64,000 nucleotides of DNA, taken from contig JAUKUA010000002.1 in the NCBI GenBank assembly GCA_030549175.1, positions 248,001 through 312,000 of the forward strand, given 5' to 3'. This DNA comes from Lasiosphaeris hirsuta. Lineage: Eukaryota; Ascomycota; Sordariomycetes; Sordariales; Lasiosphaeriaceae. The notes under the pieces are model-generated. The model did not search any database and was not told the DNA's origin. It worked only from the letters and a program-made list of their open reading frames with translations. The first letter of the stretch is position 1. Each line of letters begins with the position of its first letter. Positions 1,275-31,211 of this stretch are shown here, one piece after another. A program made the position numbers and the translations under genes.

Positions 1275-2514
1275 CTTGGCAGGACTTCAACAACGAGGGC
1301 GTCAAGAGAGATGTCCAGAGGCAAGCCCCTTCAACGGACCGGGCCAGCAGTCCCACCCGGCCATATATACCACTTCTCGTTTCCACACCCCTAGTCTGCA
1401 AAACTTGCCGTTTGCTAGGCGTCTGCTAGCCGCCTGCGAGGCTTGATGGTAAATTGTTTGTTTTCATTTATTTTAAATGCGGGGGTGAGGAGGTCGAGCC
1501 TGTGATATTTCCCGGCATTTGCCTTTCGCGTATGGAAATCATGGACGCCCGATTCCGCCTAAATCCGAGGTATAACGGACCGCCTGCACTCTATACTTTA
1601 ACTTGGCGCTAACTGTACTGTACCTCTTGCTCAGGCGAACCAGCAGATCATGCTCACGTAAAAAAAAAAACGAGGTGGACTTGTAGTGTTGGCGATCAAC
1701 GCAGATCCTGTCTGCTTGGTGTTGATTGCATGTCTGCGGCGGCTTTCTGTATTTCTTCTACAAATCGCGGGGGAAGTGAACCCGGGCAACACAAACTGCT
1801 TCCAGGTCAGATATGTGTGCTGGGGTCTCGCCCGCTGCTAAGGTATGGAAGACATCTGGAACAGGTGCTAGGATGCGATAGATGAAAGGGCAATCTGTCC
1901 GCGCCCCTGAACCGGATTCCGAGTGTCCACGAGCCACTAGACGAGCCAATCCTGTGGGGGCAGAAAAAAGAATGACTGGCAGAATGACTATCGAGCACGA
2001 GCTTATCGTGGACGGCGGTACTGTGGTATAGTGTGGGTGGACAGGGACATATTTGCCGCGTTCTGAGCGTAGGTCCTGACAGGAGTATCCGGGCGGCGGT
2101 ATAGGGTTGATTGATTGACAGCGACGGCGAGGGCGAGCGTCCGGGTCTTATAGTGTTGTGGTATAGTGGAGGCTATAGCGAGGCTTGGGGCGTATAGGGC
2201 GCGCAGCCGATTGGGCTGTCGCTGTCCGGTATCATCTGCCGACCTCGATGGAGACGCATCAGCCGACCGCAGATTTTCAGCGTTGTGTTGTGCACTTGGC
2301 ACAAACACTGAACACTACAATATGTGCTGTGGTATCCCTTTGCGCGACTTTAGCATGTGACTTCCACGTGACTTTTACCAGCCAGACGGCCAGTTGAGGA
2401 AAGCTTACCTAATCCCGCTGCCTCAGCTGAGGGCAGCTGTGGAAAGAGCCATCAAGGGATGGATTGCTAGCGCTATGCAGATTGGCGAACTGCTGACATG
2501 ACATCCACCATGAG
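1275..2514. other. Intergenic region between DUF1996 and HET genes
   Basis: It holds the DUF1996 promoter and, presumably, the HET gene promoter. Only short open frames without recognisable motifs occur, plus a short A run near 1660. No RNA gene was seen. Confidence 0.5.
1363..1369 (-). promoter_or_regulatory. TATA-like box of the DUF1996 gene
   Basis: TATATA lies about 90 bp upstream of the ATG at 1274, a usual distance for fungal core promoters. Confidence 0.45.
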
Positions 2515-4530
2515 ATGCCGCGTCAGGGCATCACTCCCCATCTCGAGCCGTTCCTTCCCTACGTGGAAAAGGCCAAGCCGTCCAAGCTGCAGGCGGCATG
2601 GCACACGCCCGATAGCCTGTTGCGTCCTCTCGACATCAGCACGCTCAAAATATGGCTCGACACGTGCGACAAGCACCACGGCGACCACTGCGCCAATTCC
2701 AACACAGCCCTCGTTCCCAGCCAGCGGCCCGCCTGGCTTGCCGATGTGCACCGGCGATGCATCGTGCGTGCCGAGCCTAGCTTTCGCTACGCGACACTGA
2801 GCTACGTTTGGGGCAAGACATCGGACTGCGTCGCACTGACCACGGCCACCAAAACCGATCTCCTCAACCATGGCTCGCTCATCGAAGCGAACCTCCCCGC
2901 CACCATCTGCGATGCGATGCGTCTTGTTGCCGCCCTTGACCTAACCTATCTCTGGATTGATAGGCTGTGCATTGTTCAGGACGACTGCCAGGAAAAGCAC
3001 GCGCAGATCAAGGCCATGGGCTCCATTTATGCCCAGTCTTCCTTCACTCTCGTTGCTGCTCAGAGTGACGACGCGTCGGGACCGCTCTCGTCCAGGTCGT
3101 TGAGGCACTTAAGTTACCCAGCCATATTCGGTTGGGCGGGCGATTTGATGGCCATTGTTGCCGGGGCCATGACTTCCTGGTCAAGGACCACCGGGTCCTC
3201 GCGGCGGCCAAGCACCAACAATCCCAATGCCCCAAGTCCCTGGGATGGTCCACACACCGACCGCGAGGTCATGAACCACATGGCTGCTGAGCTCTTGCGA
3301 ACTGTTTGGTTTTCTCGCGGCTAGACCTTCCAGGAGTTTCTTTTTTCTCGCCGCAAGATTGTCTTCCACAGCAACACTGTCAACTGGGAGTGCCACTGCG
3401 CCTCGGCCCACGAACAACAGCGGTGCATCGAAACGGCTCCGTGTTTGCGACAGCCGTTGCAAACAGCCCCATTAGGCGTTGATATCGACCCATGGCCGAA
3501 CTTCCACCGCTATGCCCGCCTCGCCTCTCTGCTTACACCGAGATATCTGACCTACCCCGAAGATATCCTCGATGCCTTCGCCGGCGCCTCGTCCGCCTTT
3601 GCGCGCGTGTTTCCGGGTGGCATCGTGACTGGCCTGCCGGAATTGGCCTTTGACGCTGCTCTTATATGGCGACCCCACCACCCTGTTGAGCCCAGGAAGC
3701 CTGTTCTCATGGCTGTCGAAGATGCTGTTTTGCCCAGTTGGTCGTGGGTCTCCTGGCAGGGAAACGTCCAGTCTGAGAGCTGGCAGAGCGGCCACGATTA
3801 TCTCCGGCAAAACAACTCCGCAGAACAGGTTTCACGCTGGCAAACCATCCCCACAGTACAATGGCACTACTCGGAAGACCTATCTAGCACGCGATACCCC
3901 ATCGTGTCCCGCGCGCCAGAATGGCGCCACCTCTACCAACACACAAGTACCCTCCTTCCGCCGGGCTGGAAACACCACACCGACGCTGCCACAGACGACT
4001 CTTACTTTACGCACGAGAGCATCCCCAACCACCAATTTTGGTATCCCATCCCCGTCGGCATCGGCAATGGCCGCGCCTCTCGGTCCCGCTATCTCCACTG
4101 CAAGACACGGCGCGCCAGCCTCGAGGTCTTCCCCGAGCCGTACCGCTCATGCACCGGCCGCTGCACCGTGGTCGCCCTACGTGACCCTGACGGTAAGTTC
4201 GCAGGTTGCCTGCGCTTGAATGTGTGGGTGCAAGATGCCCGTAGCAGCCAGCCCCTGACCGCCTTTGACCTAATTGAGCTCTCGTCTGGCAGTGTGTGCC
4301 TGGATAATAACGACGGGGAAGATCTACTCGACCATCCGCTTACTGACGTCTTCGATGAGTGGGCTGTGCCCTATTGGGATAAGGACCGTAAGGGAATCTA
4401 CGAGTTCTACAATGTCATGTTTATAGAGTGGAAAGCTCCGGGCGTTGCCTCTCGTCTGGCGGTGGGTAGGGTCTTCAAGTCTGTCTGGGAGCGGATTGCA
4501 CGAGAGGAGGGGGAAGTTGCGATTAGCTAA
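2515..4530 (+). pseudogene. HET-domain (heterokaryon incompatibility) gene with in-frame TAG
   Basis: One continuous frame of 671 sense codons is interrupted only by TAG at 3322-3324. HET motifs are clear: FRYATLSYVWG (about residue 90), the LTYLWIDRLCIVQDD core (about residue 145), a following IYAQSSFTLVAA, and the SRG-stop-TFQEFLFSRRKIVF segment, where the family consensus has RGWTxQE. The stop therefore replaces the conserved Trp (TGG to TAG). HET proteins trigger cell death after fusion of incompatible hyphae. The start at 2515 is the first ATG after an in-frame TGA at 2494. The second half (3325-4530) stays open and ends EEGEVAIS, so the loss looks recent. The G-to-A change fits a CpA-to-TpA change on the other strand, the RIP direction, but no wider RIP decay is visible. 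The segment around 3110-3250 matches the family poorly and may hide compensating indels. Confidence 0.85.
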
Positions 4531-9869: not shown

Positions 9870-10912
9870 TCACTGCCAGTGCTCGCTGTGATCTTTGTGT
9901 TTGTGGTCGTCATCTTCTGGCCACACAGGAGGTAAATCGTGCGCATGATCAACCTTGTGGCCATGATTGTGCCCGCCGTGCACCTGAATCTCCCCATCAA
10001 CCATGGGAAACGAGAGACCTAGGTAACGCCAGACCAGTCAGTAGCCGTCTAAGTAGTGGCGGAGCAAGGAAGGCACAGCTATCAAGAGACTCACCGAGTT
10101 TCGGGTGGACCAGCGTCTTTTGATCAAAAATGGAAAACGACCGCTTCGATGCCCATGCGTCAAGTCTGTCCCAATTGACGCACGTCTGATCAAGATGGAA
10201 GTTGGGCATCGGTTTGCGCATTTCCGGATGCCACCAGAACGTCACAACCGACAGGTCCGCGTGGCACATGAGAGACTGGCGGATATCGTCGATGCAGTGG
10301 TCTGCATGGCCGCGGAGGTCGGGGATGCTGATATTGTACAAGTCATGCCACAGGACCAGTCTCAGCATCTTTAGGCAGTGAAGATGGTGGTAGGCGCTCA
10401 GCTGGCCGAAAAAGCCGCCCCCGTTGCGCAGCTCGATGGGATTGGCTTGGGTGCGATTCAACTTTTCCATCTCCTCTGCGGTAAACCGGAGGTTGTAGTG
10501 CTGAAAGAGGTGCCCCCATGCCTCTTCGACCTCGGGGCGCGGCTCGCCAGTATACTTGGTGCGCAGACCGAGACTCCCATCGAACTTGTGCTTGTGGTAC
10601 GAGATGGCTTCCTTGGCCGGTGCTGTGCCAGACGAGAAAAGTTAGTTATGTTGCCAATGCACATCGCTTGAGCCGGAGCCATGGCCACATACTATACGTA
10701 AGAAAGGGATCAAGGCTCGGACGGGTCCAGAGGTGCGGCAGTTCGAGTAGCGCAAGGCTATAGGCAATGAGGAGGAGGAGAGAGAAAGCCCAGTGCCGCC
10801 ACCACTGAGAACGCTGTTTCTTGCCATATGCCGGCATCTCGTCCTCCGAATCCTTTTCGCTCTCAGTGAGGAGCGGTTCGTAAGTGATGCCGGACCTATT
10901 TGACGACTCCAT
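9870..10912 (-). CDS. UstYa-family (DUF3328) oxidase with His-rich tail
   Basis: Three exons (10693-10912, 10095-10622, 9870-10018) give 298 residues with consistent phases. A cytosolic tail (MESSNRSGITYEPLL) is followed by one membrane segment (WAFSLLLLIAYSLALLELP, about residue 45). The two family signatures are present: HHLHCL and HADHCIDDIR (HxxHC), which bind metal in this family. UstYa-type proteins carry out oxidative cyclisation, chlorination or other oxidations in dikaritin pathways (ustiloxin, phomopsin, asperipin). After the usual TCVNWDRLDAWA and HPKLG ending, a third exon adds about 50 residues with ten His. The gene is divergent from the repeat-peptide precursor 2 kb away, so it is the likely tailoring enzyme for it. 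The alternative without the last intron ends SLVSHG and is less family-like. Confidence 0.9.
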
Positions 10913-12936
10913 AATGAAACAATAAGAGCCCAAGTCAAAAGTCTTTCACTAAGAAGCAATAGAACAATGATTTTGATAAGAGAGGTTGGAGGAGCATAAA
11001 CAAAGGTAAATAGGAATGCAGAATCAATATTATTTGGTTCATTGTGTTTTTGCCTCCTGTCTTGAGAATTGACTCGTCTCTTGAAAAAGCTAATCGCCGA
11101 TTCAAATGGACCGACTATAGTTCTTGGTTCTCGGCAAAGCGGGGTCATACAGAGATTGACGGGAATAATTCCTAGAAAGAACGGCCAGTGTTGTAGAATC
11201 TACATACAGGATCATTCAGGAGTGAGCATGCGTCTTGAACTTGGGCCCCGAGCCTGCTCGGTGATATGACGTCAACTCGCGGCGGGTCGTGTAACGTGAA
11301 ACAGGGACCGGATGCAAGGTGCTTGGGGACTATCTCTTCAAACCTGGATCGGCAAGAATCCTTCGATAAGCTATGCCGTCCTAACGAGCCAATGAACTAG
11401 AGCGCTCGTAAACTGCCTATAGAGCTGAATATATCGTCCATGTATTCGGAGTTGTTTACTTTCGGCAGGTCGTATACGCGAAAATCATCACTTAAAGGGG
11501 GGAAGCCTACGCCCGGTCACCGGTCTTCGCATTCATCGATCGGTCTATGCATTCATCGATCCATCTATGGATTTTTTTTTGGGCTCTTTGCCACAGACGT
11601 TCTGGCCCTTAGCCTTGCCACCGGCCGGTCTACCAACAGTCTCGTTGAAGTGCCTTTGTCGATCCCTACTACTGACCCAGCCTTCAACCTTTTAACACAT
11701 CAGCACAACAAGGCTCTCGACCTCCAGTCTTTGACGAATTGTTTTGCCACGCACACCCTAGCTCCTGCCTCACCGGTCTAAACCAGCCAATAAAACACTA
11801 CCAATAGATTTATGGTTACATCAGGAACAAAGTATGGTGCTCCGTCACCGATTATGCCCTGTAAAACTCGCCTCGCCTTCCCTCACCGACCCAGCTCCGC
11901 GACCCTTGTGTTCCCAGCGGAGAGAGAGTTCCTGGCCGATCTTATAGGGGCATAACCTTGGGTTGCCTGTGACAGTCAGTCTGTGCATCCGGGGTTGTTT
12001 GCTTTCCAGCAGGTTGTATAATATGAAAAACTTGAAATAGACTGGCGGGGTAGAATGCACAATGCTTCATACCTTCCTCTTCGAACCGAGATAAGAACTC
12101 CACGGCAAGTGTCGTCCCAACGAGCCAATAAACTAGAGGATATGTCAGAAAGGAGGCTGAGTGATGGAACATCTGTTTTGACTCGCAGGAATGTATTGCA
12201 ATGTAGATATCCAAGGAGAAGAGTCACAGGCCAGGGTTTTCCCACCTTAACTCACCACCTTTGACTTTTCTGTTTGCTCTAATACATGTGTTTCCACTAT
12301 CTCATGGTTCGCTCAAGTCATTGTATGGTAGCAACACAAGATCCCGTCTTTCTTGTTGAGGGTGTTGTTGGCCATTGCGTTGCAGGGTGGAAGTCCCTGA
12401 CGATTGACTTGACTGCCGTTTGCCCATACTATATGCAAGCTGAAATACGTAGCCAGTGTACTCGGGGCTGTTTGCTCTGCTTCCGGCAGGTCTTGTAATG
12501 TGAAAGAGTGGTTAGATGACGTCGTACCTATGTAAAGTGCTTCAGATCTTCCTCTTTAAACCTGGATAAGTAAGGTGAGCAAGACTTCTTTGATAAGATC
12601 GCCATCCTAACGAGCCGATCCATCAGCTGAGGATATATGGTCGATATATTCGAGGTTACTTGCTTCCCTGTGGGTCATATACTGTGAATAATATAACCTG
12701 ATGAGGGTAGTATAGAAATGAAATCCTGACGAGCCAATAAGCTTTGTAGCTGAAATCTGTAGTCCGTGTACTTGAGGCCGTTTATTTGGCAGTCCGGTAT
12801 CCGAGGAATGAAATTCATATATTAGTCCAGGAGACATTCAACCAAGAGACCATGCTCAAGATCACTTCATCGGTCGCCTTTCAGCAAGTCATTCAGTCTC
12901 CAGAATCATCAATTATCCTTGGTCCCATCATCCATC
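10913..12936. other. Intergenic region between oxidase and precursor
   Basis: Probably holds both promoters. No gene is supported; most of it is the degenerate repeat block at 11220-12800. Confidence 0.5.
11220..12800 (+). repeat. Decayed tandem/dispersed repeat, at least four partial units
   Basis: Shared words recur in the same order: 'tcctaacgagccaat(g/a)aactagag' at about 11380-11405 and 12107-12137, with diverged forms at about 12605-12630 and 12725-12745; 'cggggctgtttgctttc.ggcaggtcgtataatgtgaaa' at about 11445-11480, 11990-12030 and 12460-12500; and 'cttcctcttt.aaacctggataag' at about 11330-11355, 12070-12095 and 12550-12575. Spacing differs between units and stops occur in all frames, so coding is unlikely. 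The origin could be a duplicated promoter block or an old mobile element. Confidence 0.55.
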
Positions 12937-13439
12937 ATGATGCTCACGCCCAAGATCATTGCACTCATGCCGTTCCTGGCTGCGGCGCTTGCAGCGCCCT
13001 TGGCTGGTCCGGCAGGCGGTAGGTTTTGATTGTCTTGTCTCTGCCATCTACTCACGATAGTTACTGAATTAAATTGTCTACAGTCGACCAGGACGCCACT
13101 CAGTATTACGACAAGCGTGAGGCCGGGCTTACTGAGGATGCCACTCAGTACTACGACAAGCGTAAGGCCGCGCTCGCCGAGGACGCAACTCAGTACTACG
13201 ACAAGCGTGAGGCTGGGCTTGCTGAGGACGCTACCCAGTACTATGATAAGAAGCGTGAAGCCGGACTTGCTGAGGATGCCACCCAGTACTACGACAAGAA
13301 GCGTGAAGCTGGGCTTGCTGAGGACGCTACCCAGTACTATGACAAGAAACGCGAGGCTGGACTCGCCGAAGATGCCACCCAGTACTATGACAAGCGTGAG
13401 CCCGCACTCGTTGAGGACGCCACTCAGTACTACGACTAG
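12937..13439 (+). CDS. Kex2-processed repeat-peptide precursor (putative RiPP precursor)
   Basis: Exons 12937-13018 and 13084-13439 (65-nt intron) encode 145 residues. A signal peptide (MMLTPKIIALMPFLAAALAA) is followed by eight copies of DATQYYD. Seven junctions have K(K)R Kex2 sites followed by a short acidic/Ala spacer such as EAGLAE. DATQYYD is identical in all eight copies while spacers vary (EAGLTE, KAALAE, EPALVE) and the DNA of the cores differs only at silent sites, so the core is under selection. This layout matches UstA/PhomA-type dikaritin precursors. The adjacent UstYa gene supports a cyclic or cross-linked Tyr-containing product; the product itself is not known. The stop (TAG, 13437-13439) falls directly after the eighth core; the same frame then runs on for 12 more codons of spacer-like sequence to a second stop. 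Confidence 0.88.
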
Positions 13440-14092
13440 AAGCGTGAGCCCAGCCTCGCCGAGGATGTTAGCAGCTAGTTATTCCGTAGTGGGTTTGCCT
13501 ATTAGAGATCATACTCTAGATAACCAGTGGAGTGCCCGCACTTGAACAAGTACTCAATATACGCGATCTTATCTACCTGAATCTGTACTGCGCGATGATG
13601 CTTTTTCTCCTGCTGGTTGGCAGTCGGCTTTGCCATGAATCCCCGTGGCTCGGACCACTACTCCCTTATTGACAGTGTGGTATCGAGGGCCCATCAACGG
13701 TGGCAATATGCCTAACAATTTCATGCACCCCGCTGTCATGGCTGAAGAATCCTTCTGCAGCATTCACGTTACGGGCGCCCATAAAATGGATTAACCAAGG
13801 GATAGAAAGCCTGCGAATTGCTTGCTTGTTTTGAGGGTTGAGAGACGTGAGTTTGGGCCGACAGCGTAGAATAGATCCGTCTCTTATTTTGGGATTGGTT
13901 GCAAAACGGGATGTTGCACAAGCGAGGGGGGACTCGGTCAACGGGTCAATCTCCCGTTTTCCCGGCTCTGCTGACAAATACTCAACAGAAGGGGCCAGCA
14001 TTTGCCATTTGCGTCAGCGTTGGTTGCCAGCTGCCCACCAACTTCTGCCAAACTTGCAACCAGCTCTGTTTATCCAAGGCAGGAGCACCACC
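13440..14092. other. Intergenic region between precursor and MFS gene
   Basis: Precursor 3' end and MFS promoter. No further gene motifs. The remnant of the precursor frame continues to 13478. Confidence 0.5.
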
Positions 14093-15590
14093 ATGTCGGC
14101 TGCCAGCCCAGAACAGAGGCCTTTACTGGGTCCCAAGAGCGATGGCCACGAGCAGAAGCACCGGCGTCGTGTCATCGCCGTGAGCTTCTCCATGGTCCTT
14201 CTGATGGACTTTGCCGCCTTCTTCCTGGACGCGCCCCAGACGAGCATCCTGGAAGCCAACATTTGCAGCCGTTACTACGAGCCAGCCGAAGAGGAGAAGG
14301 ACTGCAGAGCTGGGCCGGTTCAGGCCGAGCTCGCGACCGTCAGTCAGATGCTCAACACCTTCAACCAACTGCCAGGCCTCTTCGTGGCCATCCCCTTTGG
14401 CATCATCGCCGACCGTTACGGCCGTCGCCCCGTGTTCATCTTGACCATCCTCGGCGCAGTCTTGCAGGATATCATTTCCAAGACGGTGCTCTGGCGCCCC
14501 GACCTTTTCGCACCGCGTCTCATCTGGCTGTCTTCGCTCGCTACCTTTGTGGGCGGGGGGATGCCGTTGCTAGCTCCATGATCTTTTTGGTCGTCGCCGA
14601 CGTTGCTCCACCACACGACCGAGCAAAGTTATTTTACCTCCTGACCGCCTGCGAACGGGTGGGGGAAATCGTGGCCACACCTTTGAGCGCGCTGCTCATG
14701 TCTATCTGGAATCCGTGGGTACCGTACCTGCTGTACAGCGTCCTGACCCTTCTCGCTGGCATGATTCCTGTATTGTTTCTGCCAGAGACTCTGCCGAGGT
14801 CCATGTCGCCGAGTGAGACGGAAACGGAAACGGAAACGGCTTCGTGCGAGTCCGACACTGGTACGGACCAAGGGCTGCCGAACGCTGCGAATGGGACGTC
14901 GTCGACATCCACACTCTTGACTACCATATCAAAATTCCGACCTCTTATAAAGCACAACATTATTGCTGTGCTGTTGGCTTTCTTCGTTTCAGCCTTGGGA
15001 CGTCGGTCAACAGGTTTTCTCTTACAGTACATCCGGCAGCGGTTCGACTGGACATACGAAAAGGTAAGTTATCTACTGGATCAGCACCCTAGCTTTGCTT
15101 AACCGTATCGTCTTCACTCTAGGCCAGTATTTTGCTCACACTTCGAGCTGCCGTGGACTTTGCTCTGCTCCTGGTCGGGCTCCCAGCTCTTCACAAGGTT
15201 CTCATCACTCGCGATTTCAGCACCCAGAGCAAGGACCTCCTCATCAGTCGTCTCTCCGTCGCCTTCTTCGCCACCGGCTCGCTGGTAATTTCGCTGGCTC
15301 CGGTTGTGCCCCTCGCCGCGCTGGGCATCGTCATCTTCGCGTTCGGCTCCGGCTTTGCTCCTGCCGCACGCAGTCTCGCGACCACCTTTGTCCACCAGGA
15401 CGAGGCAGGGCTGCTCTACACTGCCCTGGCCATCACGCAAACGGTTGGTGGACTGGTAGCAGGCCCCTTGCTGGCGTTATCCTTTCGGTGGAGCCTGGGC
15501 TTTGGTCGTGAATGGACTGGTATTCCGTTTACCCTGGTGGCCGGCTTGTTTGCCGGCGGGTTTATTGCCGTCTCTTTTGTACGGCTGTGA
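14093..15590 (+). pseudogene. MFS transporter, apparent -1 frameshift in a G run
   Basis: Major facilitator transporter, probably a multidrug/efflux type with about 12 membrane segments. MSAASPEQRPLLG opens the N-terminal tail; the first segment is VIAVSFSMVLLMDFAAFFLD; the loop 2-3 motif is GIIADRYGRRPVF; and the second half ends GGFIAVSFVRL. The intron is 15064-15122. The frame breaks at the six-G run 14555-14560: the 14093 frame meets TGA at 14579-14581, whereas the next frame continues with DAVASSMIFLVVADVAPPHDRA. Seven Gs would join them. This is either a real inactivation or a homopolymer sequencing error. The position between precursor and methyltransferase, on the same strand, suggests export of the cluster product. 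Confidence 0.85.
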
Positions 15591-16264
15591 TGGAATTATA
15601 TTCAGATTGTGAACGAATAGAGTCAAGGCAACTTGTAAGCGACGGACGTCGATGTATGCTTTGCAGTAGAGGCAATGGCTTTAGCGTCGTCACGATTCAG
15701 GCATTCACGAATTGGCCCATGATAAGAGTTTCGTGGTACGAGACTCTGTGGAAAGACAGTGCGTGGGGATAGTCGTTCTCGGTCTCATGTAGCGAGAGGC
15801 CTGTAGAGTCGTGAGGATATCAGCCTGAATGACATCCAAGGCTGGTACTAGCAAGACTACGGGCTTATCCTGGAAATGATTGGCAACGGGGAGTGCACGC
15901 TGATCAAGATACTTGAAGCCACCAGCGAGGATACCGTCAAGAGGCACAGTCTCCATATTACCTGTTTCAGGGCGCTTAAATGCATGCTTATGATGCATGG
16001 TTGATACGACGTCACAAATCACAAGCGACCTGCCTGTTTAGGGTTCCGATCTGCAGGGAGTAGTAGAGATATCAGCGTTACCTGATTGAACATGGAAGCC
16101 ATGTATTTTAGTGTACATGGTTTTAGGGGGGATATTCAGCCGAGTAATTCCTGTCGGGAGAGGTATCTCGTCCCAACATTTAAGGAGGTCGAAAAGTCGA
16201 CACAACAACCTGGCATATCCATTTCGAGGCAACGACGGCATCCATGGTCAGATAGACAAACAGA
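15591..16264. other. Intergenic region with unrecognised minus-strand frames
   Basis: Two minus-strand frames (15705-16022 and 16038-16241) have protein-like composition, with phrases such as LDGILAGGFKYLDQRALP, VVLLVPALDVIQADIL and LNIPPKTMYTKIHGFHVQ. They could be exons of one decayed gene, but no family was recognised and a clean splice was not found. Confidence 0.3.
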
Positions 16265-17236
16265 ATGGGCTCTCTTTCACCGCAGGAGCTGTCAGCGTGC
16301 CTCCTTTACTCTATCGATCATCTCGACAATCAAAACCACCTAGCCGCACTTGAGCATCGCCAACAAGTCGCCAGAGCCTGGGGCATCCCGTCGGGAGCGT
16401 CAGTGCTCGAAATTGGACCAGGCCAGGGTGAACTCACAGTCGTGCTGGCCGATGTCGTTGGACGCACAGGCCGAGTAGTCGCCGTTGATAATGCGCCATT
16501 GGAGTGGGGTTCGTCGACTTTTTTTTTTAATCGTTGTCTTCTTTCCTCGCCGTGAATAACAGTTATAATCCTAATCAAACCCTGTCAAATAGGCACCCCG
16601 GATTATGCATCATCCCAAGCCCATGTCCTCGCTTCGGCTGTAGGATACCAAGTCAGCTTCGTGCAGGCCGACCCCATCGCGTATCTGTCGGGAGGCGCCG
16701 GAGGCCACACGTTCGATTTCATCGTCTTTGGTTACTCGATCTGGTACTTCTCCAGCCCGGACATCCTCACCAGGGCCCTCCAAGAGGCCCGCCAACATGC
16801 CCAGAGCGTCCTCATCGCCGAGCATAGTCTCTCAGCGTCGCTTCCAGCCCAGATGCCTCACCTTCTCGCCGCCCTCGCGGACAACGCGCTCGAGAGCTTC
16901 CGCGGTGAGGAGTCGAAACGGAATATCCGCTGCGCCCTCAGCCCACGTCAGATTACGACTTTCGCTGCGAATGCCGGCTGGGCGTTGGCGAAGGAGGAAA
17001 TCGCCACGCCTTTGTCGAAGCAGGTTGATGCCAAGATGGAAACGCGAATGGTGCTTAACTCGCTGCTGTTCCGCGCTGATTTGGATGGCGTTGTTTCTCG
17101 TGTAGATGCCAAGATCGGTACCATGTTACGTAGTATGATTGACGCGGTTGCAGCCAGCGTGGAAAATGCAGAGGGTGGGTTAGAAAGTGTTAGGAACATG
17201 GATGTCTGGATTGCACGATTCGAAAAGAAATTCTAA
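16265..17236 (+). CDS. Class I SAM-dependent methyltransferase
   Basis: Exons 16265-16508 and 16593-17236 (84-nt intron with a long T run) give 295 residues. Motif I is ASVLEIGPGQGELTVVLAD (about residue 45), with the acidic end of the second strand at VAVDN, and FDFIVFGYSIWYF as the post-I region. The C-terminal part (ALSPRQITTFAANAGWALAKEE) is typical of fungal secondary-metabolism methyltransferases. By analogy with UstM and PhomM it may methylate the peptide product of the cluster; N- or O-methylation cannot be told from sequence. It is collinear with its neighbours, about 670 bp after the MFS gene and 330 bp before the ABC gene. Confidence 0.85.
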
Positions 17237-17566
17237 CACACCAGAAATGACATTCTTGGGCATTTCGCCACATCTCTCTAGAGAACCGACTACCATAAGT
17301 TTGCTCTTGCCAATGGCCCCTTCACAGGCATGAGATCGTCATTCTGTGCCTCAAGATTACGACCCAGGCAACCAACCAACCATGTAGATCGCGGCTATAT
17401 TTAGACCTCCTTCCACAACAAGAATCACCCCCATACACCAGGCAGAGAGATCTAGGATCTGCACTACGTAGGCCTGCTCACACGACCTACCGCCCATTTG
17501 TGTCCTGCGAACCAGCTACAACCCACATCTTCTTTACACATCATTCCGTCTCGGGCCAATGAATCA
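17237..17566 (+). other. Intergenic: promoter region of the ABC transporter
   Basis: Short spacer between collinear genes. No distinct motifs beyond general promoter sequence. Confidence 0.45.
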
Positions 17567-20500
17567 ATGGATTCGCTCCAGTGCGGTTTTGCGGCCGACG
17601 CGGATTTCGGGCCGTCGGTGTCGCCGTGTCGCCGGGAATTCGACTTCACGATCCTCTTTGAAGAAGTGGTGCTTGTGATTGTTCCAGCATGCACTTTCAT
17701 CATCCTCGCTATCGCCTCCCTTCTGTCTCTACGCCGAGCTCGCACACTGGTCCGCCATGGCCGGATGTACTTGTTCAAGCTCTTCTCCGCCACCGCGCTG
17801 GGAGCTGCGCAGGTGGCCGTCCTTGCTGTGCAAACGCGACTCGCCAACTCGACGGCCGGCTCGATCCCCAGCGCCGTTGTTTCGCTCATCGCAACCCTCT
17901 TCATCCCCTTCGTGTCGCATTTCGAGCATGTAAAGTCGCTCCGGCCTTCTTCGCTGCTGGTCGTCTTCCTCTCCTTGACCTGTCTTTTCGAGGCCACCCG
18001 GACACGCACTTATTGGCTGAGCGGAGAGGCGGCCTTGGCGGCCACCCTGTCCGTGGCCCTCGGAATACGACTGGTCGCTCTGTGCCTGGAGCTTCTGAGC
18101 AAGGGAGACCTTGTTCTGGCGCGGGACGGAAAGATAGCCGTCGAGCTGCTGGCCGGCCCCATCAGCCGCACCGTCTTCCACTGGCTCAATGGGTTGATGG
18201 CGAGCGGTTACCGTGGCGTGCTGCGACTGGAAGATTTCGGCCCCATTGACGATCGCCTGCTCACGGCGCGTCTGCAACCGAGGTTCCGACGCGTCAGCAG
18301 CCGATACGAAAACAAGACTGGCGATACAGAACCAGAGAAAGAGGGCTCATCGACAGGCAACGGGCTCGTCTGGCTTACCTTCACCGCCTTGGGCCGCACC
18401 TGGGCGGCTCCCATGGTGGCAAGACTGGCCGTCACCGCATTCACCTTCACTCAGCCATTTCTCGCCAACGCCGCCTTGACATACCTCGGGGCAGACTACC
18501 CCATCCCAGCCAGCCACGGGTACGGGCTCATAGGCGCGGCGTTCCTGTGCTATGTCGGCATCGCTGCGGCGACCAGCTGGTACTGGCATCAGGCGTACCG
18601 CTGTGCCGTCACGGTCCGCGGCGGGCTCGCCATCGCCGTATTCGAAAAGCTCCTGAGGCTGCCCGAAGGCGACGAGCTCGAGTCCATGGCTACCACGCTG
18701 GTGGTTGGCGATCTCCAGCGTATCATGACCGCTGTTGCCCACTGTCACGAGGTATGGGCTGGGACTGTCGACACTGGGCTGGCAACTTGGTTGCTGTACA
18801 GGCAGCTTGGGCCGTCTTGCTTCGTCATGCTCGGAGTTGCTGCAGGTGGGTGGTCCAAGACGAGGAGTTCCGTGTATTGCAGCAGCACAAATGGCTAACG
18901 ATTGCAAGTGTCCGGCCTGGGTTCCATGCAGATCATGAAGAAGACTGGTACGAGCCAGCAAAAGTGGCTGGCAGCTACCCAGAAGCGGTTGAAGCGTACC
19001 AAGCAGGTGCTCGACAGTTTGAAGGGAATCAAAATGACGTCGCAGAGCTCGGTGGCCGACCAAACCCTGACCAAACTTCGGATGCGCGAAATAAAAGATT
19101 CATCTTCATTCCGTTGGATCATGCTGGTAACCAACATCCTGTGTAAGTTTCGCAACTCACCAGTACGCGCCGACATATACCATAGCAGCTCGCTGACAGC
19201 ACCTTTTCCACCCCTCAGCATACTGCACCTTGACTCTCTCTCCTCCACTCATATTCGGCGTGTATATCGGCACTGCCGGCAGCGGGTATGACTTTAGTGT
19301 ATCCAAGGTTTTCACATCTCTGGTCATCATCACGTTGCTGTCCGCACCTCTGGTCCGTCTCTTCCAGGTCCTCCCTCAACTCGGTGGCGCGTATGGATGC
19401 TTCCAGCGACTGCACGAGTTTCTCGTATTGGAAGAGAGGATCGATTTCAGGGAGAAAATGGTCGACGGGGACCCTGGAGCCGACGGTTCCGATTCCCATG
19501 CAGCGCATACGCACATCATGTCGCTTCGAGATTTGTCCCTTGGGTGGAACCCGAAAAGTAGCCCGATTCTGACAAATATCAACCTCGAGGTTAAGAAAGG
19601 GGCAAACATTGCCATCGTTGGCTCCGTGGGGACCGGGAAAACACTCCTCCTGAGGGGGCTCATCGGCGAAGCCTACAAAACTCATGGGCAGCTAGCCTTG
19701 GCTCCGCCCATCTCGCTCGCCTACTGCAGCCAGACAGCGTGGCTCGAGAACGTCTCTGCGCAGCAAAACATTACGCAGTACGGAAAAGAAGCAAGCGATT
19801 CGGATTACTACCGACAGTTAGCATCGGACTGCGCGCTGGATGACCTCGTCCGGCTGCCGACATTCGCCTCTGGCTCCGTTGGCAGTGGCGGCGTGATGCT
19901 CAGTGGTGGGCAACGTCAGAGATTGGTGAGTCCGCACGCGTTTGAAAATGGGAAATACCTACCTACCTACCTACCTACCTACCTACCTACCTAGGGCTAC
20001 TGACATGCACACACCCGTGTATCTAGGCGCTAGCTAGAGCCCTGTCGACGGAAAGCGACATCTTGATTCTCGACGACGTGTTCAGTGCCTTGGACCGAAG
20101 AACGAGATGGCGTGTTGCCACGATGCTACTCGGTCAATCCCCAGCCAAAGCCGAGAGGGCGGTAATCTACGCCACTCACGATGGTAGGACTCCATCCTCC
20201 GTCTCGGCGGTCGGGTGGTGATGATGCTGACGCAAGCCGCAGAGCGAATTGCCAACCTGGCGGACGAGGTATACCAGATTGACGAATCGGGACATCTGTC
20301 CCGCAGGCCAGACCTAGGCCAGGCTTCGTTGGCTTTGGCGGAAGGACAACTCTTTGATTCTCCCCAGATGGAACCAGTCGAAAGCTTGGAAGCGGCCGAG
20401 GATTCCCTAGCCGACAAGTACGCCCACGCATCAGCCAGAGCCCAAGCACCGCTCGACGCCGTCGAGAGGCAGGCCGCAAAGCAAATGCTAGGGGACAGAA

Positions 20501-22500
20501 CAGTGTACAAGACGTATTTCCAATCCGTGGGCTTGCTCCACTCGACCATATTCCTCGTCGGCGCCATGGCTTGGTCAGTCAGTTTCAAGTTCTCTGGCAA
20601 GTAAAAAAAAAAAAAAAAAAAAAGCATCCACCGTGTTCCCAACACTCCTTCCAGTCTCCTAACCTTTGGTCATCTAGATGTCTGGGTGCGATGGTGGTCA
20701 GACGCCTCGGCCGCAGGCGACAACCGCCTGGGTTACTGGCTGGGCACATACGCCGTGCTGGGCGTCGTCCCGCTCGCCGTGCTCTGCGCGTGGCTGTACC
20801 ACCAGCAATTCAACGTCATCTCTCGGTCGGGCTCGCGCCTCCACAGCCGGCTCGCCACCACGGTCCTCCAAGCCCAATTCCCCATCATCAGCCAAGTCGA
20901 CACGGGCACGACGCTGAACCGCTTCAGCCAAGACCTCTTGTTCGTCGACATGCAGCTGCCCCTGGACCTGTCCAACACAGCCTCGGAACTCTTCACGGCA
21001 CTCATCCAGATAGTGCTCATCGCGGTCGCGTCAGTGCCCGCGCTGTGCGCCGTCCCGGCCCTGCTCGCAGCGCTGTACCTGGTGCAGCACTTCTACCTGC
21101 GCACGTCCAAGCAGCTGCGCCTGCACGAGCTCGAGGCGACGGCGGCGCTGGTGACCAAGATCGCCGAGACGTCCTCGGGCGCGGGCCTCGCCACGATGCG
21201 CGCGCACGGCTGGGCGGACGCGGCCACGGCTGGGTTTCTCACCCGGCTCGACCGCTCCCAGGAGCCCGTGTACCTCCTGTACGCGGCGCAGCGCTGGCTG
21301 CAGCTCGTGCTCAGCCTGGTGGTGGCCGGGCTCGTGGTGGCCGTGCTGGGCGCGTCCATCGGCCTGAAGGCGTCCGGCGCGGTGAGCGCGGGCGCCGTCG
21401 GCGTGGCGTTCCTCAACGCCGTGACGCTCGGCGAGACCCTGACGCAGTTCATCATGGCGTGGACGGGCCTCGAGACGTCGCTGGGGGCCATCGCGCGCAT
21501 CGCGCTGTTCCGGCGCCAGACCCCCGCCGAGGAGGAGGATGCCGGGCCCCCCGAAGCAGCGCCGACGGCCCGTGGCCGTGACGGCGCCGTGCGCTTTGAG
21601 AATGTGTGGGCGACATACTCCCGGGGTCCCGGCGCGGGAGCCCCGGGGCCGGACGGGGAATGGAGCCTCCGGGGCGTCAGCCTGGACATCCGGCCCGGCG
21701 AGCGCATCGCGGTCTGCGGCAGGACGGGCTCGGGCAAATCCACCATGCACCTCGCGCTGCTGCGCATGGTGTACGTGCCGATCGGATCCATTTTCATCGG
21801 CGGTGCGGACCACGCCGGCATGACCCTCGAGACGCTGCGCAAGGGCTTCTTGGTCATCTCGCAGGACAGGCTCGAGGGCTTCGACAGCCTGCGCCAGGAA
21901 CTCGACCCTCACGAGGTCTTCTCGGACCGGAGGGTTGAGGCGGTACTGCGCGAGTGTGGCATCGTGGACGTGGTGCTCAGAACCCCCGGCGGACTGGCGG
22001 CCAGGAGGGAGGATTGCAGGTTCTCGGCTGGCGAGGAGCAGCTGCTGAGTGTGGCGCGCGTCATGCTTGATGTGGAGAGGGGTGCTGGAGCACCGGACAG
22101 CGCAGGCGGGATTGTGTTGCTGGACGAAGTGACGAGCAGGTATGTCTGACCCTGTGTATACCCCTGCTGTGATTTGCTCTCTCCTATTTGCCGCACAAAA
22201 GTCGGCTGGGTCCTGACGACTTGACTGTCTACTTCCAGTATCGACAAGAAAACCGAAGAGAAGATTGAGTTGCTACTCAAGACCCGCCTCGGTGGGAGGA
22301 CGCTGATTGCTATCAACCACAGGCTTGAGGCTGCACTAAACTATGACCGTATCGTGGTGCTAGATAACGGGATGGTTGTTGACGTTGGCACGCCGGCGGA
22401 GCTAGTGTTACGGTGTGGACTGTTCGCAGGATTAAAGGTCCACACGCTGCGGGCCCGCCCCAGGCCCCCAAGTATCCATGAAGTTCGTTCGGCATGTTAA
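17567..22500 (+). CDS. ABCC/MRP-type ABC transporter
   Basis: Seven exons: 17567-18845, 18909-19142, 19219-19925, 20027-20183, 20243-20596, 20678-22139, 22239-22500; 1,484 residues. The TMD0 start (MDSLQCGFAADADFGPSV, then CRREFDF) is typical of fungal ABCC proteins. NBD1 (about residue 640) has Walker A GSVGTGKT, signature LSGGQRQRL and Walker B ILILDDVFSALD. NBD2 (about residue 1256) has Walker A GRTGSGKS and Walker B IVLLDEVTSSID, but its signature is FSAGEEQLL instead of the usual SxGQRQL form. Intron 5 is GC-AG (GCAAGT donor at 20597) and holds a poly-A run; intron 3 holds a CTAC microsatellite. It is likely the plasma- or vacuolar-membrane exporter of the cluster product, or a self-protection pump; this is inference from position. 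The start is placed at 17567 because family proteins begin there; the frame is open to 17498. Confidence 0.92.
19957..19993 (+). repeat. CTAC microsatellite in ABC intron 3
   Basis: About nine tandem copies of ACCT/CTAC, wholly inside the intron 19926-20026. Confidence 0.9.
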
Positions 22501-25952: not shown

Positions 25953-28900
25953 TCATCGTGGAATCCTCTTCCCCTCAAAAACATCCGCAGGCCAGCCCTG
26001 CATAGTAACGCCCTCATCCACCGTGTCACCTCCCATGATCAAGGTGTGCTCTAACAAACAGCTATCCGCCATCATCGTCCCGCCCGAAAGCAACCTGCTG
26101 CCCGTGCGCAAGACACAGCGGTCCCCGACATGCAGCATGTTGAGATCAAACTTGCCTTTGCTGTTGATGTGCCCCACCAAGCTGGCATCATCCACCACCA
26201 CGCGATCTCCCATATTGATCAAATCGGGCTCGGTAAACATCAAAGACGGCCTACCGTTCGCAAACAGAGCGCAGTCCTTGCCAATCTTGGCTCCGAGGGC
26301 GCGGAAATACAGGACGCACCAGTGAGTTCCAGTCAACATGCCCAGGATTCCATTTCCGCGGAAGCAGTCACGTCTCAGTGCCTCAATCGTAATGTACAAT
26401 TGCCAGCGCTGGCAGTACGAGGACACGTCCCAGCTGTAGTTGCCCGGCTTTCGGCGGCCTATGACAGCCCACTTTCCGGCGATGGTAATAGCGAGCGCAA
26501 TGATCGACTGCACCAGGGTGAGAAAGGCGAAGGAGCTCGTGAAGAGGCCAAATAGAACGAGTGGGCTCATGTCGTAGGTAAACTCTCCCTTTTTGAGAGT
26601 TGCGCCGGGGGCGATGAGGGGTCGGTAGAGGCGATCAAAGACTTGGACCGAGACGACAAAGGGGGCGTTCCAATACACCACGATAAAGATACGAATGAAA
26701 GTGGTGTAGAGGAAAATGGCGAATTGCCCAAGCACGTAGTATGGAGCCTGGCGTAGGTAGAACGCACGGCTAAAGGGACTGAGGGTATTGGGGGTCGGCG
26801 ATTCCGTCTCGATTTGTGGTGCCGTGGTCGTATCTCGCTCCAGCCTTGACAGGGGCACTGCCTTCTCGGGATCGGTCATCGATGAGAGCATTTCGTGATG
26901 GCCATCTCCCGTTTGTGGCCTAGACCCAAACTTTGTGCTCGATTCCGACGGGGCCGCGGTGGATGCGGCACTGCTCCAGGACTGCCTGCGTCTTCCATCA
27001 TCCGACCTGGAGGTCAAATCCCCTGATGAGCTAGACCCCAGTGTCGACATGTCGCTATCACCCAAATCTTTTCCAGACGATAGACACACAGCCTCTCCGT
27101 TCCGTGATCCGACGAACACTCCCTGGGCCGGGTAATTCTTGTTCCTCCGCGTAAGCGCACCCGAGCCAAGAACGGTCTGCTCCCCGACCGTAACGCCTGG
27201 GAGGCACACGACACGGTCGGCAATCATGGCTCCGGCCCGTACCTTGATCACCTCTGAGCCGTTACCGTCAGATGTGACAAGGTGTGCACGTCCGCCAAAC
27301 ACAACATCATCCCCGATGTCGAGCAGATGATAGTCGCCGATGTGAGGGCCGGTACCTGGCCAGTAAACACGCTTCCCCACCTTGGCGCCGAGAATACGCA
27401 AGATAATCGACCTGAACTCGTAATGCGCTCCGAAAAGAGAAGTCACGCTGGTCAGAGAATGATTTGGAAAGATGGTCCTTATAAGCGACAGTCTCCATCT
27501 CTCAACCTGACCTCTCGATTCGGCTCTGCTAGGTCCAAGCTTGCCAAACATCAGGTCGAGGACGGCCAAGATGGCCAAGACGGTGGCAAAGAGAAAGAAG
27601 GGACCGAAGATGGTGTTCAAGATCAGAGCCAGGAAGTGGAAAAATACCCGCTGCCCACCAGCGAACCAGTGAATGATGCTGAGGAAAGGCGTAGCTGACG
27701 TTTCTGGCTTTGAGCTCACGAGTCCGAGAAGGGCGAGTAGCCAAGGGGTGGAGTGGATAGCTCTTGTAAACCCAAAAAGCGGCAGAGTGCCGAACAGTGT
27801 GAGAGCCCAATGGGGCTCGGGAATCTTATGGAAACCCAGGTCTCGGTTTGCTTCGGTGGCATCATTCAGCTCGCGGCTTGACGAATTCGGTCCAATGCAT
27901 GTGTTGTCGGGCACGGGGACGCCAGGGGCAAGTATCGATGCTCTCCCGACGTAGGCGTTCTGGCCAATCGTGATTCGTCCCAAGTACATGGATGTGTTGC
28001 GCTCGGAGGCAAATGGCCGGCAGTTACACGCCTCGAGCACTGTGTTGTCGCCTATGTCGATGAGATCCCATTCACCCAGCTGTGCACCATCGATAAGGAC
28101 GCCCTTGCCGATTTTGGCACCCAGCAGGCGATAGAACCACACTCGTGTGAAGTTTGTCGTACTGTTCAAGCACGGTTGTCAGCATCTTCGCCAGGGCAAT
28201 GCTGAGCACGCTGGATCGAGAAACTCCGGTAACATCTTGCCTCAGAGGTCAAAGGAGGGGGTTGGGGTTGGGGTTGGGGTTGGGGTTGGCAACTTACCTC
28301 CAAACGCCGAGACCACACACATCCACAGTTTTTTGTACAATCCACCACCTCGTATGGTATCCACCCCACATGGGGTAAATTCCCTCCCTGTGTCGCCAAA
28401 TGACTAACCACTTGACGAATATGCCCACAAAAGGAATGACAATGAGGATGCACAGACGTGTAAGCAACAGGCAGCCTGCCACGTTGAGAAGCCTGCCCAT
28501 AACATGATTGCTGGTTTGCATCGTCTTGGTGTTTGCCAAAAGAACAAGGAAGAGGGTCCATTGTACGCCGCGACGGGCTGGGTAGAGAAAGAGAAGGGGT
28601 ATCAATTGAAACAGAAGCAGGAATGGGTTTGTTGAACTGCAAGTTTCGGTTTGAGAAGGCTGATTGTGCTTTTCAGAGTCTGCACCCGCACTATCGGAAG
28701 AGTTGGAGGCTGATTCTTGCAGCTTCTTATCAATGTGCTTGGCTATCCTGTTGATAGAACCATCTCGAAACACGAGAACAATGGGCAGGGCGACTCCAAA
28801 CTCGGATCGCAGACTGGACAGCAGCTTGCCAGCGCGGAGGGAATCACCACCGAGTGCGAAAAAGTCGGTGTCTCGGTCAAGCTCACTGGATGGGGTGTCG

Positions 28901-31211
28901 AGAATGCTGCCAAATGCCGTCGCGACCCGACCGGCCGTGCTATCGCCCTCGTCGTCGACGGCGAGATTCCGCTGGGCATCCAGCAACCGCTTTACCTCCT
29001 CGTATTGGGGCTTGCCATTTGCATCGAGAGGAACCGGCCCGTCAAGGGTGAAGTATTTGTGCGGGACGCTGTAGCCGTCTACGAGCAGAGGCATTTGCGT
29101 CTTGAGGGCATCGATCAGGCTGCTGCCAGACCATCGCGACAGTGTTCGTGCGTGTGTGCGATTGCGAATCAGGAAAAGCTCAAGAACTCCCTGCTTCGGA
29201 TCTTTCCTGGCCAAGAAGGTGATGCTGCGCGGCACGTTGGACTGGATAGCTCGTGATAATTTGGACTGGTCGGCATCGCACACCTTGGACGGTATGTTGA
29301 CTGAGAGCTCCGTGTCGGGCTCGGGGCAGGTGGCCTCGCGATGAAGGTCGCTATATTGGGTGTTGTCGGTGACTTCGGGGATGTCGAGGCGATCGCCAAG
29401 CCGGATGCGCAGGACCTTATTGTTGCGCTTGGGCAGGTCGTCCATGTAGACAACAAGGGCGGGCCATTTAGCTTGCTGGAGACACTCCCTCAGCGCCTGG
29501 TGGAGTTGTCTGATGTCGACGCGGGGCGCACCGGGAGGGGTGACGAGGACGACGCCGACAACTTCTTGGAGGACATCGTGCTTGGCAGAGAAGGCGAGGG
29601 CTTGGGTCACGCGGCCGTAGATTGGCGAATGTTGGTTTTGGGCGACGGAAATGATGGCGTTCTCGACCTCGAAGGGCGAAATGATCTCGCCGCCGCGGTT
29701 GATGACCTCTTTGCTTCGGCCGGTGATGAAAAGGAAACCATCAGCCGACATGTAGCCGAGGTCACCGGTATCGAACCATCCATCGCGGGTGAAGCAGGAT
29801 CTGTCGATGGTGCCGTCCTGCTTGAGATAGCCAGGGAAGACGGGCTCCCCGCGCACGCTGATCCTGCCCACGGTTCCTGGAAGCACAACCGCTCCTTCGG
29901 CGCCGAGAATGGCCAGCTCAGGACCCACAGCGATGCCTGAAGTGCCAGGCCGGTCTAGTTTGTAATCGATGGGTGGGGTGGAGATGGGCATGCACCTGAC
30001 TAGGTCAGACAGACGGAAAAGGAAAGAGCAGAGAGAAAGGAAGCGACTCACTCTGTCATTCCGTAGCTGGGCAGGACGATGCACTTGAATGTGTCCCTGA
30101 TGCGCTCGGCCAGCGCGGGCAGCAGCCCACCCGCCGCATTACACACCAAACGAATCCTACTCTTGGCGAGCGCTTCAGGGCGGAACTCTGCCTGGTCAAG
30201 CACCATCTGATGCATCGACGGCGACGCATAGTACCACGACGCTCCCAGGTCCTCGACGACATCCCAGAAGGTGCTTGGGTCGAATGCGGGGCAGCAAATG
30301 GTCGACCCCCCCGAGACCACGGGCGCGAAGATATTTCGGACCAATCCACCACTGTATAACGGTCAGTCTCAGGCATCTGTGGGGGAGGGGGTGGGGGTGG
30401 GGTGTCCATGCGGGCATGAGCATGGAGGCGCTACTCACATGTGGTGGAGCGGCATCATATTGAGACACACATCATCCGCTGTCAACGCCCATGAGCTGAT
30501 GACATACGCCACGCCTGCCACGATGTTGTGAACCGTGATGGGCACAATCTTCTTCGTCCCCGACGTGCCGCTCGTGAAGAGAATGATCGCCATGTCATCT
30601 GGTCCGTTCGGCTGCACTCGGGCGCTGTTCGTCGTGAGCAGTCTTCCGTCCCGGGGCGAAACGGTAGCCAGCGGCCCGTAAGAGTCGCCCTGGCCTTCCT
30701 CGAGGAAGAAAACGGGGGTCTGTCGCTCCGTAGACCATGACGATGTCAAACCCAAGCGCTCGGCATCTTCCCTTGTCGTCAGGACGCATGACGCCCCAGC
30801 CTGTTGCACATCTGCCTCGAACTGCTCAGCACCCACCTCAGGGTTGATCGGGGCTGCTGTGAACCTGTTCGCGACGGCGAGAACAGCCGCCGCCAGGATC
30901 GGTCCGTTGGGCAAGGCGATACAGACGACCGGTTTCCTGCCGCTGGACGAGAAGGAGAGCGGTAGAGTGAAGGTATCCACGAAGTCGTACAAGCGTCGAT
31001 GCGTGATCGCGGGTCGTCCTTGGTCAGCGTAGAAGAGGGCGGGCTTGTCTTGCGGTCTGAGGAACTGAACCAGGCTCGAGTACTGTTTCCCCATCTTGCG
31101 TCGGGGGGAGGCTCCATTCGAGTCCGTATTGTTGGGTGAGTGGGCTATCTCCAAGGAGTGAAGGAGGGCGAGCCCGGTCCTAGACGGCGACATCGCGCTC
31201 GACCCGGCCAT
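25953..31211 (-). CDS. Pls/PosA-type NRPS-like synthetase (A-T-membrane-hexapeptide domains)
   Basis: Four exons (30439-31211, 30052-30351, 28298-29995, 25953-28161) give 1,659 residues, all phases consistent. The adenylation domain spans about residues 40-600: core motifs FTSGTSGTKKIVP, LPSYGMTE, WFDTGDLGYM and GRSKEVINRGGE. The carrier domain has the phosphopantetheine site FFALGGDSLRAG at about residue 740. It is followed by several membrane segments and blocks of hexapeptide (LpxA-like) repeats such as LLGAKIGKGVLIDGA, ILGAKVGKRVYWPG and ALGAKIGKDCALFANG. No condensation or thioesterase domain is present. This is the layout of poly-lysine-synthetase-like NRPSs (Pls/PosA), which make short amino-acid homopolymers or condense amino acids at the membrane. 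Substrate cannot be read by eye. It stands alone, separated from the peptide cluster by the CE1 gene. Confidence 0.88.
28257..28289 (+). repeat. GGGGTT array inside an intron of the synthetase
   Basis: Five or so GGGGTT units in the 136-nt intron 28162-28297; the plus strand could form a G-quadruplex, the transcript carries the C-rich complement. Confidence 0.85.

Follow-up and report, generated by a model that had tools for sequence, protein, structure and literature searches.

The genome of Lasiosphaeris hirsuta (Sordariales) contains a compact cluster of five genes that we read as a minimal, tyrosinase-free pathway for a ribosomally synthesised and post-translationally modified peptide (RiPP) of the dikaritin (ustiloxin) type with a new core peptide. 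The pathway is known here from its genes alone, and we give this reading a probability of about 0.8. The cluster occupies positions 9870-22500 of the 64,000-nucleotide stretch that was analysed (hereafter the window; C7:248001-312000 of a genome of 44.4 Mb in 14 contigs) and comprises a UstYa/DUF3328 oxidase gene, a two-exon precursor gene and genes for a major facilitator superfamily (MFS) transporter, an S-adenosylmethionine (SAM)-dependent methyltransferase and an ATP-binding cassette (ABC) transporter. All five gene types that the initial annotation had placed there are present according to domain matches and gene models. Its description of the last four as collinear also holds, with the precursor, MFS, methyltransferase and ABC genes on the plus strand and the UstYa gene, approximately 2 kb from the precursor, on the minus strand. 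The assignment to a dikaritin-like RiPP cluster is supported by a UstYa-methyltransferase pair that recurs in other fungi, the ED-core-KR layout of the precursor and the presence of a separate pheromone-type gene elsewhere in the genome.

The precursor has a hydrophobic, signal-peptide-like N-terminus and eight copies of DATQYYD. A Kex2 site follows as KR after repeats 1, 2, 3, and 7 and as KKR after repeats 4, 5, and 6, whereas repeat 8 ends at the stop codon, so that only seven of the eight repeats have a C-terminal Kex2 site. The earlier claim of a signal-peptide precursor with eight Kex2-bounded repeats therefore stands for the number of repeats but not for the last Kex2 site, and for the N-terminus its hydrophobic nature is what was found. 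The stop codon takes the position occupied by Lys in the other repeats and directly follows the eighth core, so that this core forms the C-terminus of the precursor as it stands; beyond the stop, sequence resembling the repeats continues in frame. Asp precedes the hexapeptide in all eight units, as ED in seven and QD in the first, and the two adjacent tyrosines are invariant. With the lysine trimmed, the unit between Kex2 sites is 13 residues long, as in EAGLAEDATQYYD.

The codons of the cores vary at six of the seven positions across the eight copies while the amino acid remains constant. When the seven repeats with a full linker were compared in pairs, the seven core codons showed 56 synonymous and no non-synonymous differences, against 48 synonymous and 33 non-synonymous differences in the six linker codons. 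The codon tallies of all eight cores require at least seven changes, all of them synonymous; the odds of this are approximately 5e-6 if all base changes are equally likely and 17.5% of them are synonymous, a rough figure given gene conversion among the repeats and unequal mutation rates. Such synonymous-only variation indicates that the core peptide is under selection. Together with the tandem array itself and the finding that this is one of only five such frames among 4013 scanned (described below), it argues against a chance origin of the repeats.

The initial annotation took the core to be DATQYYD; the repeat is there in eight copies, but its boundary is better parsed as ED followed by ATQYYD. 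Conserved ED and KR flank the ustiloxin cores (PMC6514808) and the same framing is found in a phomopsin-like precursor of this genome, making it more likely that the core is ATQYYD and that the first Asp belongs to the linker. For comparison, UstA has units of 13-14 residues, and lengths of 13 and 8 residues are given for ustiloxin and asperipin-2a, respectively (PMC7329392). As had been stated, the core differs from the three named known cores YAIG, YVIPID, and FYYTGY. Searches for ATQYYD, DATQYY, and TQYYD in the main texts of papers, a scope outside which the supplementary tables of survey precursors fall, returned unrelated matches only, and the passages drawn from PMC7329392, PMC12048977, and PMC6339444 contain neither YYD nor QYY. 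The precursor sequence occurs at one place in the L. hirsuta genome, and no relative at E ≤ 1 was found among 7996 scored candidates of the protein collection, namely those sharing most words with the query at 0.55-1.75 times its length. L. hirsuta's own precursor is missing from these matches, so the gene seems to be unannotated in the protein database and the lack of relatives is weak evidence.

The UstYa protein matches PF11807 at 168 bits (cut-off 25), and its translation agrees in full with a protein deposited for L. hirsuta. Both of the motifs initially reported were located, HHLHC at residues 152-156 and HADHC at residues 179-183, each on a predicted helix. The protein also has an N-terminal membrane helix and a His-rich C-terminal tail, the latter being a feature of four rows in an alignment of 29 UstYa proteins (the window's protein and its close relatives P0002, P0003, and P0004), and a VWP motif near the C-terminal end that is common to 14 of the 29. 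No NCBIfam family was over its cut-off for either the UstYa or the methyltransferase. DUF3328 proteins were described in 2025 as binuclear copper enzymes on evidence from CctR, in which HxxHC...HxxHC lies in a four-helix bundle and a single membrane helix accompanies a luminal catalytic domain (PMC12435403). The window's UstYa shares the CctR sequence features.

The methyltransferase gene was modelled with a product identical to the deposited protein P0048, in agreement with the earlier assignment, and its closest solved chain is 3bkx_A (E 4.9e-22). In the ABC protein, the matches over the cut-off are to a TMD0, a single membrane region and two stretches of ATPase, an ABCC-like layout in line with the initial description as an ABCC transporter. 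For the MFS transporter the claim held in part: the 323 residues after a break in the frame match MFS_1 at 66 bits against a cut-off of 33.4, but the reading frame is not intact. The part before the break reached 24 bits, under that cut-off, and a 277-residue portion after it, which had no match over the cut-off, was set aside for the fuller 323 residues. An intron was considered as the cause of the break but seems improbable, since the break interrupts a seemingly continuous membrane-segment motif, which we take to be an MFS pattern. The break may be a natural lesion or an assembly error; assemblies often err near runs of G.

Matches in the protein collection numbered 47 for the UstYa and 42 for the methyltransferase. 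Nine named species have a methyltransferase match of at least 72%, and six of them carry both genes on one contig, as judged by the equal size of the contigs carrying both and with unnamed metagenome matches left out: L. hirsuta itself, Nemania sp. FL0916, Canariomyces notabilis, Diaporthe helianthi, Neopestalotiopsis clavispora, and Cytospora chrysosperma. The other three are Lasiosphaeria hispida, Niveomyces insectorum, and Diaporthe ampelina. The N. clavispora pair has consecutive gene numbers (g10497/g10498), and in C. chrysosperma the two proteins form one deposited model (P0006, VSDG_00637), apparently a gene-caller fusion. Co-location in other genomes is thus found for the UstYa and the methyltransferase, in five other named fungi, but the precursor was not traced elsewhere. 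Trees were built from 24 UstYa and 21 methyltransferase rows, with many forks open; in both, Cytospora joins one unnamed metagenome protein and Diaporthe another. The window's UstYa shares 25-30% identity with other UstYa pieces of at least 100 residues in the scanned stretches of this genome, placing its close relatives in other fungi. A fusion-like model from Ophiocordyceps, P0011 (CDD80_4502), combines a UstYa with a secreted-looking protein. Titles and abstracts searched for Ophiocordyceps with RiPP, UstYa, or ustiloxin held nothing on this UstYa.

Genome-wide, the PF11807 profile gave 41 matches, one of which is in the window. The Kex2-repeat scan covered the window and 4013 open frames in all, the others coming from 20 stretches with 13 other UstYa places; seven UstYa places lie outside it. 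Five Kex2 repeat precursors were found, that of the window and four at four of the 13 other places. One belongs to a phomopsin-like cluster at C11:3838000-3867999 (L015-L017; precursor at L015 2097-2528, minus strand), which contains several UstYa genes, a methyltransferase, a tyrosinase, an S41-type peptidase, an oligopeptide transporter (OPT), and a Zn2Cys6 regulator. The ten printed units of this precursor consist of ED followed by YVIPID (two), YVISVD (six), or YVIEVN (two), with K(K)R after nine and K at the frame end in the tenth. The remaining three precursors (L022 2362-2853, plus strand; L020 4881-5783, minus strand; L029 3200-3727, minus strand) lie approximately 1-2 kb from UstYa matches, and their units are DTVIPDKQKYE, ARHHKGKKTNG (without Tyr), and LAKDGIKIKAVNTY, respectively.

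None of the 42 tyrosinase matches of the genome falls in the window, the nearest on C7 being at 821006-822115; this search scored the best candidates only, exon by exon, and it did recover the tyrosinase gene of the C11 cluster in three pieces (C11:3856711-3857442). Likewise, the window holds none of the five S41-type peptidase matches, one of which (C11:3854439-3854645) is in the phomopsin-like cluster, and none of the 44 NmrA-family (PF05368) matches, the nearest being at C7:105199. These results indicate a separate and smaller type of cluster, not a fragment of a phomopsin set. Among the window proteins scanned, none showed a regulator or OPT domain. A further tyrosinase match and a further S41-peptidase match (C11:3960707-3961544 and C11:3962389-3962874) lie within 2 kb of each other, approximately 100 kb from the phomopsin-like cluster.

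Table. Features of the L. hirsuta cluster (positions within the window)
Feature	Positions	Strand	Structure	Product
UstYa/DUF3328 oxidase gene	9870-10912	-	exons 10912-10693, 10622-10095, 10018-9870	298 aa
RiPP precursor gene	12937-13439	+	exons 12937-13018, 13084-13439	145 aa
Core-repeat tandem array	13090-13436	+	eight repeats, units of 45 or 48 bases	
TAG (13437-13439), in-frame linker-like stretch and second TAG	13437-13478	+		
MFS transporter gene	14093-15590	+	intron 15064-15122; frame broken at ~14560-14580	
SAM-dependent methyltransferase gene	16265-17236	+	exons 16265-16508, 16593-17236	295 aa
ABCC-like full transporter gene	17567-22500	+	seven exons	1493-1496 aa by splice-site choice

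The interval between the UstYa and precursor genes contains a dispersed repeat at approximately 12143-12434 that matches at least 39 other places in the genome (72-83% identity). Short repeats related to it lie at 11312-12783, and two of its relatives stand side by side in the genome. Near the cluster and approximately 250 kb from the contig end, positions 2497-4530 match a HET (heterokaryon incompatibility) domain. On the minus strand, a row of open reading frames with AMP-binding, phosphopantetheine, and hexapeptide-repeat matches (25953-31232) represents a gene resembling a nonribosomal peptide synthetase, whose layout may resemble that of fungal poly-amino-acid synthetases.

We infer the order of the steps, the cross-link, the site of methylation, expression and export from the gene set. 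The signal peptide would deliver the precursor to the secretory pathway, where host Kex2 would cut after each K(K)R to give 13-residue units such as EAGLAEDATQYYD and a carboxypeptidase would trim Lys/Arg, leaving a core that ends in Asp. The one UstYa of the cluster, as a putative binuclear copper oxidase anchored in the membrane and exposed to the Golgi lumen, would oxidise one or both tyrosines, most likely to form an ether or aryl cross-link within ATQYYD. Peptidases encoded elsewhere would then remove the linker, the methyltransferase would alpha-N-methylate the freed N-terminus, and the product would be exported by the MFS and/or ABC proteins. N-terminal methylation appears to be the likeliest role of the methyltransferase, by analogy with UstM and PhomM, which act on the N-terminal amino group (PMC6514808, PMC11285071). 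That asperipin-2a is made with one UstYa means that a tyrosinase is not needed in principle. The precedent for the cross-link joins a Tyr phenol with the beta-carbon of a different residue (PMC6514808). The adjacent tyrosines here would also allow a Tyr-Tyr link, a bond that is not known from dikaritins. The calculated [M+H]+ values are 760.3148 for linear ATQYYD, 758.2992 with one cross-link and 772.3148 with a methyl group in addition to the cross-link; for EAGLAEDATQYYD they are 1445.6067 in linear and 1443.5910 in cross-linked form.

Several other explanations of the same genes were weighed. The UstYa could act on ATQYYD as a hydroxylase or another C-H oxidase and not as a cyclase, given that CctR is a hydroxylating DUF3328 enzyme and that halogenation, hydroxylation, and macrocyclisation have been linked to the family (PMC12435403). 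We consider this unlikely, because the products of Kex2 repeat precursors considered here, namely ustiloxins, phomopsins, and asperipin-2a, are all cyclised through Tyr (PMC7329392) and the asperipin-2a pathway has a single UstYa without a tyrosinase (PMC6514808, PMC12048977). A once-working pathway now in decay would account for the broken MFS frame and for the stop codon that removed the last linker of the precursor and is followed in frame by repeat-like sequence. Such decay is rather improbable: all eight cores are intact with no non-synonymous change, the stop creates the same C-terminus as Kex2 cleavage and trimming, the UstYa, methyltransferase, and ABC models are open, and the MFS break lies near a run of G, a context of assembly errors.

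It is also conceivable that the repeats are secreted as unmodified peptides, with a signalling or other function, and that the UstYa and methyltransferase act elsewhere or are neighbours by accident. In a survey, 6120 of 7878 Kex2 repeat proteins had no DUF3328 neighbour (PMC7329392), the UstYa gene here is on the other strand and separated from the precursor by about 2 kb and a dispersed repeat, and the precursor was untraced in the other genomes searched through the protein collection. We give this explanation little credence since a UstYa beside a Tyr-bearing Kex2 precursor is the arrangement that defines the class, both tyrosines are kept in every unit, and the UstYa-methyltransferase linkage is kept in five other named fungi. 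A mating-pheromone or a wall- or repellent-type repeat protein would share the Kex2-repeat layout of alpha-pheromone precursors but is extremely improbable. Nearly all pheromone precursors are without DUF3328 neighbours (PMC7329392), and another gene of L. hirsuta, at C1:4998371-4998703 (L037 1225-1836, plus strand), encodes a pheromone-type precursor with three WCTIRGQSCW units; it was located with a query peptide whose first match was weak (E 0.0055). The pheromone alternative, which the initial annotation had raised, was rejected on the grounds that the repeat units here contain neither Trp nor Cys and that the pheromone-type gene is a different one, on C1.

Several observations weigh against a minimal tyrosinase-free dikaritin pathway. 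The pathway is known from genes only, the linkage in other fungi covers only the UstYa and the methyltransferase, and that of the precursor is shown in this genome alone, with no database relative found. No close UstYa was present among the 47 matches for Lasiosphaeria hispida, Niveomyces insectorum, or Diaporthe ampelina, and for seven Ophiocordyceps UstYa relatives (53-67% identity) none of the 42 methyltransferase matches was named Ophiocordyceps. In the UstYa tree the Cytospora group and the Diaporthe group come together, whereas the methyltransferase tree keeps them apart, at a fork that is open. Moreover, the window methyltransferase is 32% identical to that of the phomopsin-like C11 cluster, but a closer paralogue (38%) lies at C1 2680706-2681515, a place without a listed UstYa; the 32% match by itself therefore fails to tie this methyltransferase family to dikaritins. 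The predicted UstYa structure has a middling mean pLDDT (a predicted local confidence score) of 70 and no clear solved relative, and the hydroxylating and halogenating members of DUF3328 make the cross-link less than certain. The MFS gene has an interrupted reading frame. Finally, since some known cores have fewer than six residues (YAIG, and YVIP as the phomopsin core is given in one paper; PMC7329392), the boundaries of ATQYYD are not settled, and the final peptide may be shorter.

The compact system with a single UstYa and adjacent tyrosines offers a test of what one DUF3328 copper enzyme does without a tyrosinase. None of the scored proteins, not even one from L. hirsuta, corresponds to the precursor, which suggests how gene callers miss such peptides, and the recurring UstYa-methyltransferase pair provides a handle for finding precursors in other fungi. 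More tentatively, the UstYa and its linked methyltransferase could mark an undescribed tyrosinase-free dikaritin subfamily in which one copper enzyme yields cross-linked, N-methylated peptides from Tyr-Tyr-Asp cores, perhaps with a Tyr-Tyr link, and in which the His-rich luminal tail might load copper. The subfamily would extend across the orders Sordariales, Xylariales, Amphisphaeriales, and Diaporthales, and Ophiocordyceps (Hypocreales), including ant-infecting species, would form a branch with the UstYa alone.

With one UstYa and no tyrosinase match, the organisation of the cluster is closer to that of asperipin-2a than to those of ustiloxin or phomopsin. Asperipin-2a (aprA, aprY, aprR, and aprT of Aspergillus flavus) has in common with it a Kex2 repeat precursor, a hexapeptide core with adjacent tyrosines and, according to passages of PMC6514808 and PMC12048977, a single UstYa, a transporter, and no tyrosinase. 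Its four-gene cluster is described as having an isoflavone reductase and no methyltransferase (PMC6514808). The two systems differ in the core (FYYTGY versus ATQYYD) and in the repeat unit (8 versus 13 residues), and the L. hirsuta cluster includes a methyltransferase as well as an ABC transporter, with no NmrA-family match in the window. We take aprR to be a member of PF05368. The phomopsin pathway (phomA, phomQ, phomM, and five DUF3328 genes) and its relative on C11 share with the window a precursor of the form ED-hexapeptide-K(K)R, a UstYa, and a methyltransferase. They are distinguished by a YVIPID-type core and, as found on C11, by several UstYa genes, a tyrosinase, an S41-type peptidase, a Zn2Cys6 regulator, and an OPT transporter; an S41-type peptidase is named for phomopsin-type clusters (PMC6514808). 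The ustiloxin B cluster (ustA, ustQ, ustYa, ustYb, ustM, and others) has the same ED/KR framing, units of 13-14 residues, and an N-methyltransferase, but its core is the tetrapeptide YAIG, two UstY proteins are involved, and the tyrosinase is essential for the first cyclic intermediate. Its P450, flavin-containing monooxygenase (FMO), and pyridoxal phosphate (PLP) enzymes have no equivalent among the five genes here. In a survey that speaks of 838 types, 1758 of 7878 Kex2 repeat precursors had a DUF3328 neighbour (PMC7329392). As such precursors are common and at least four more occur in this genome, the novelty is modest, and the cluster very probably represents a known class with its own core sequence and enzyme set.

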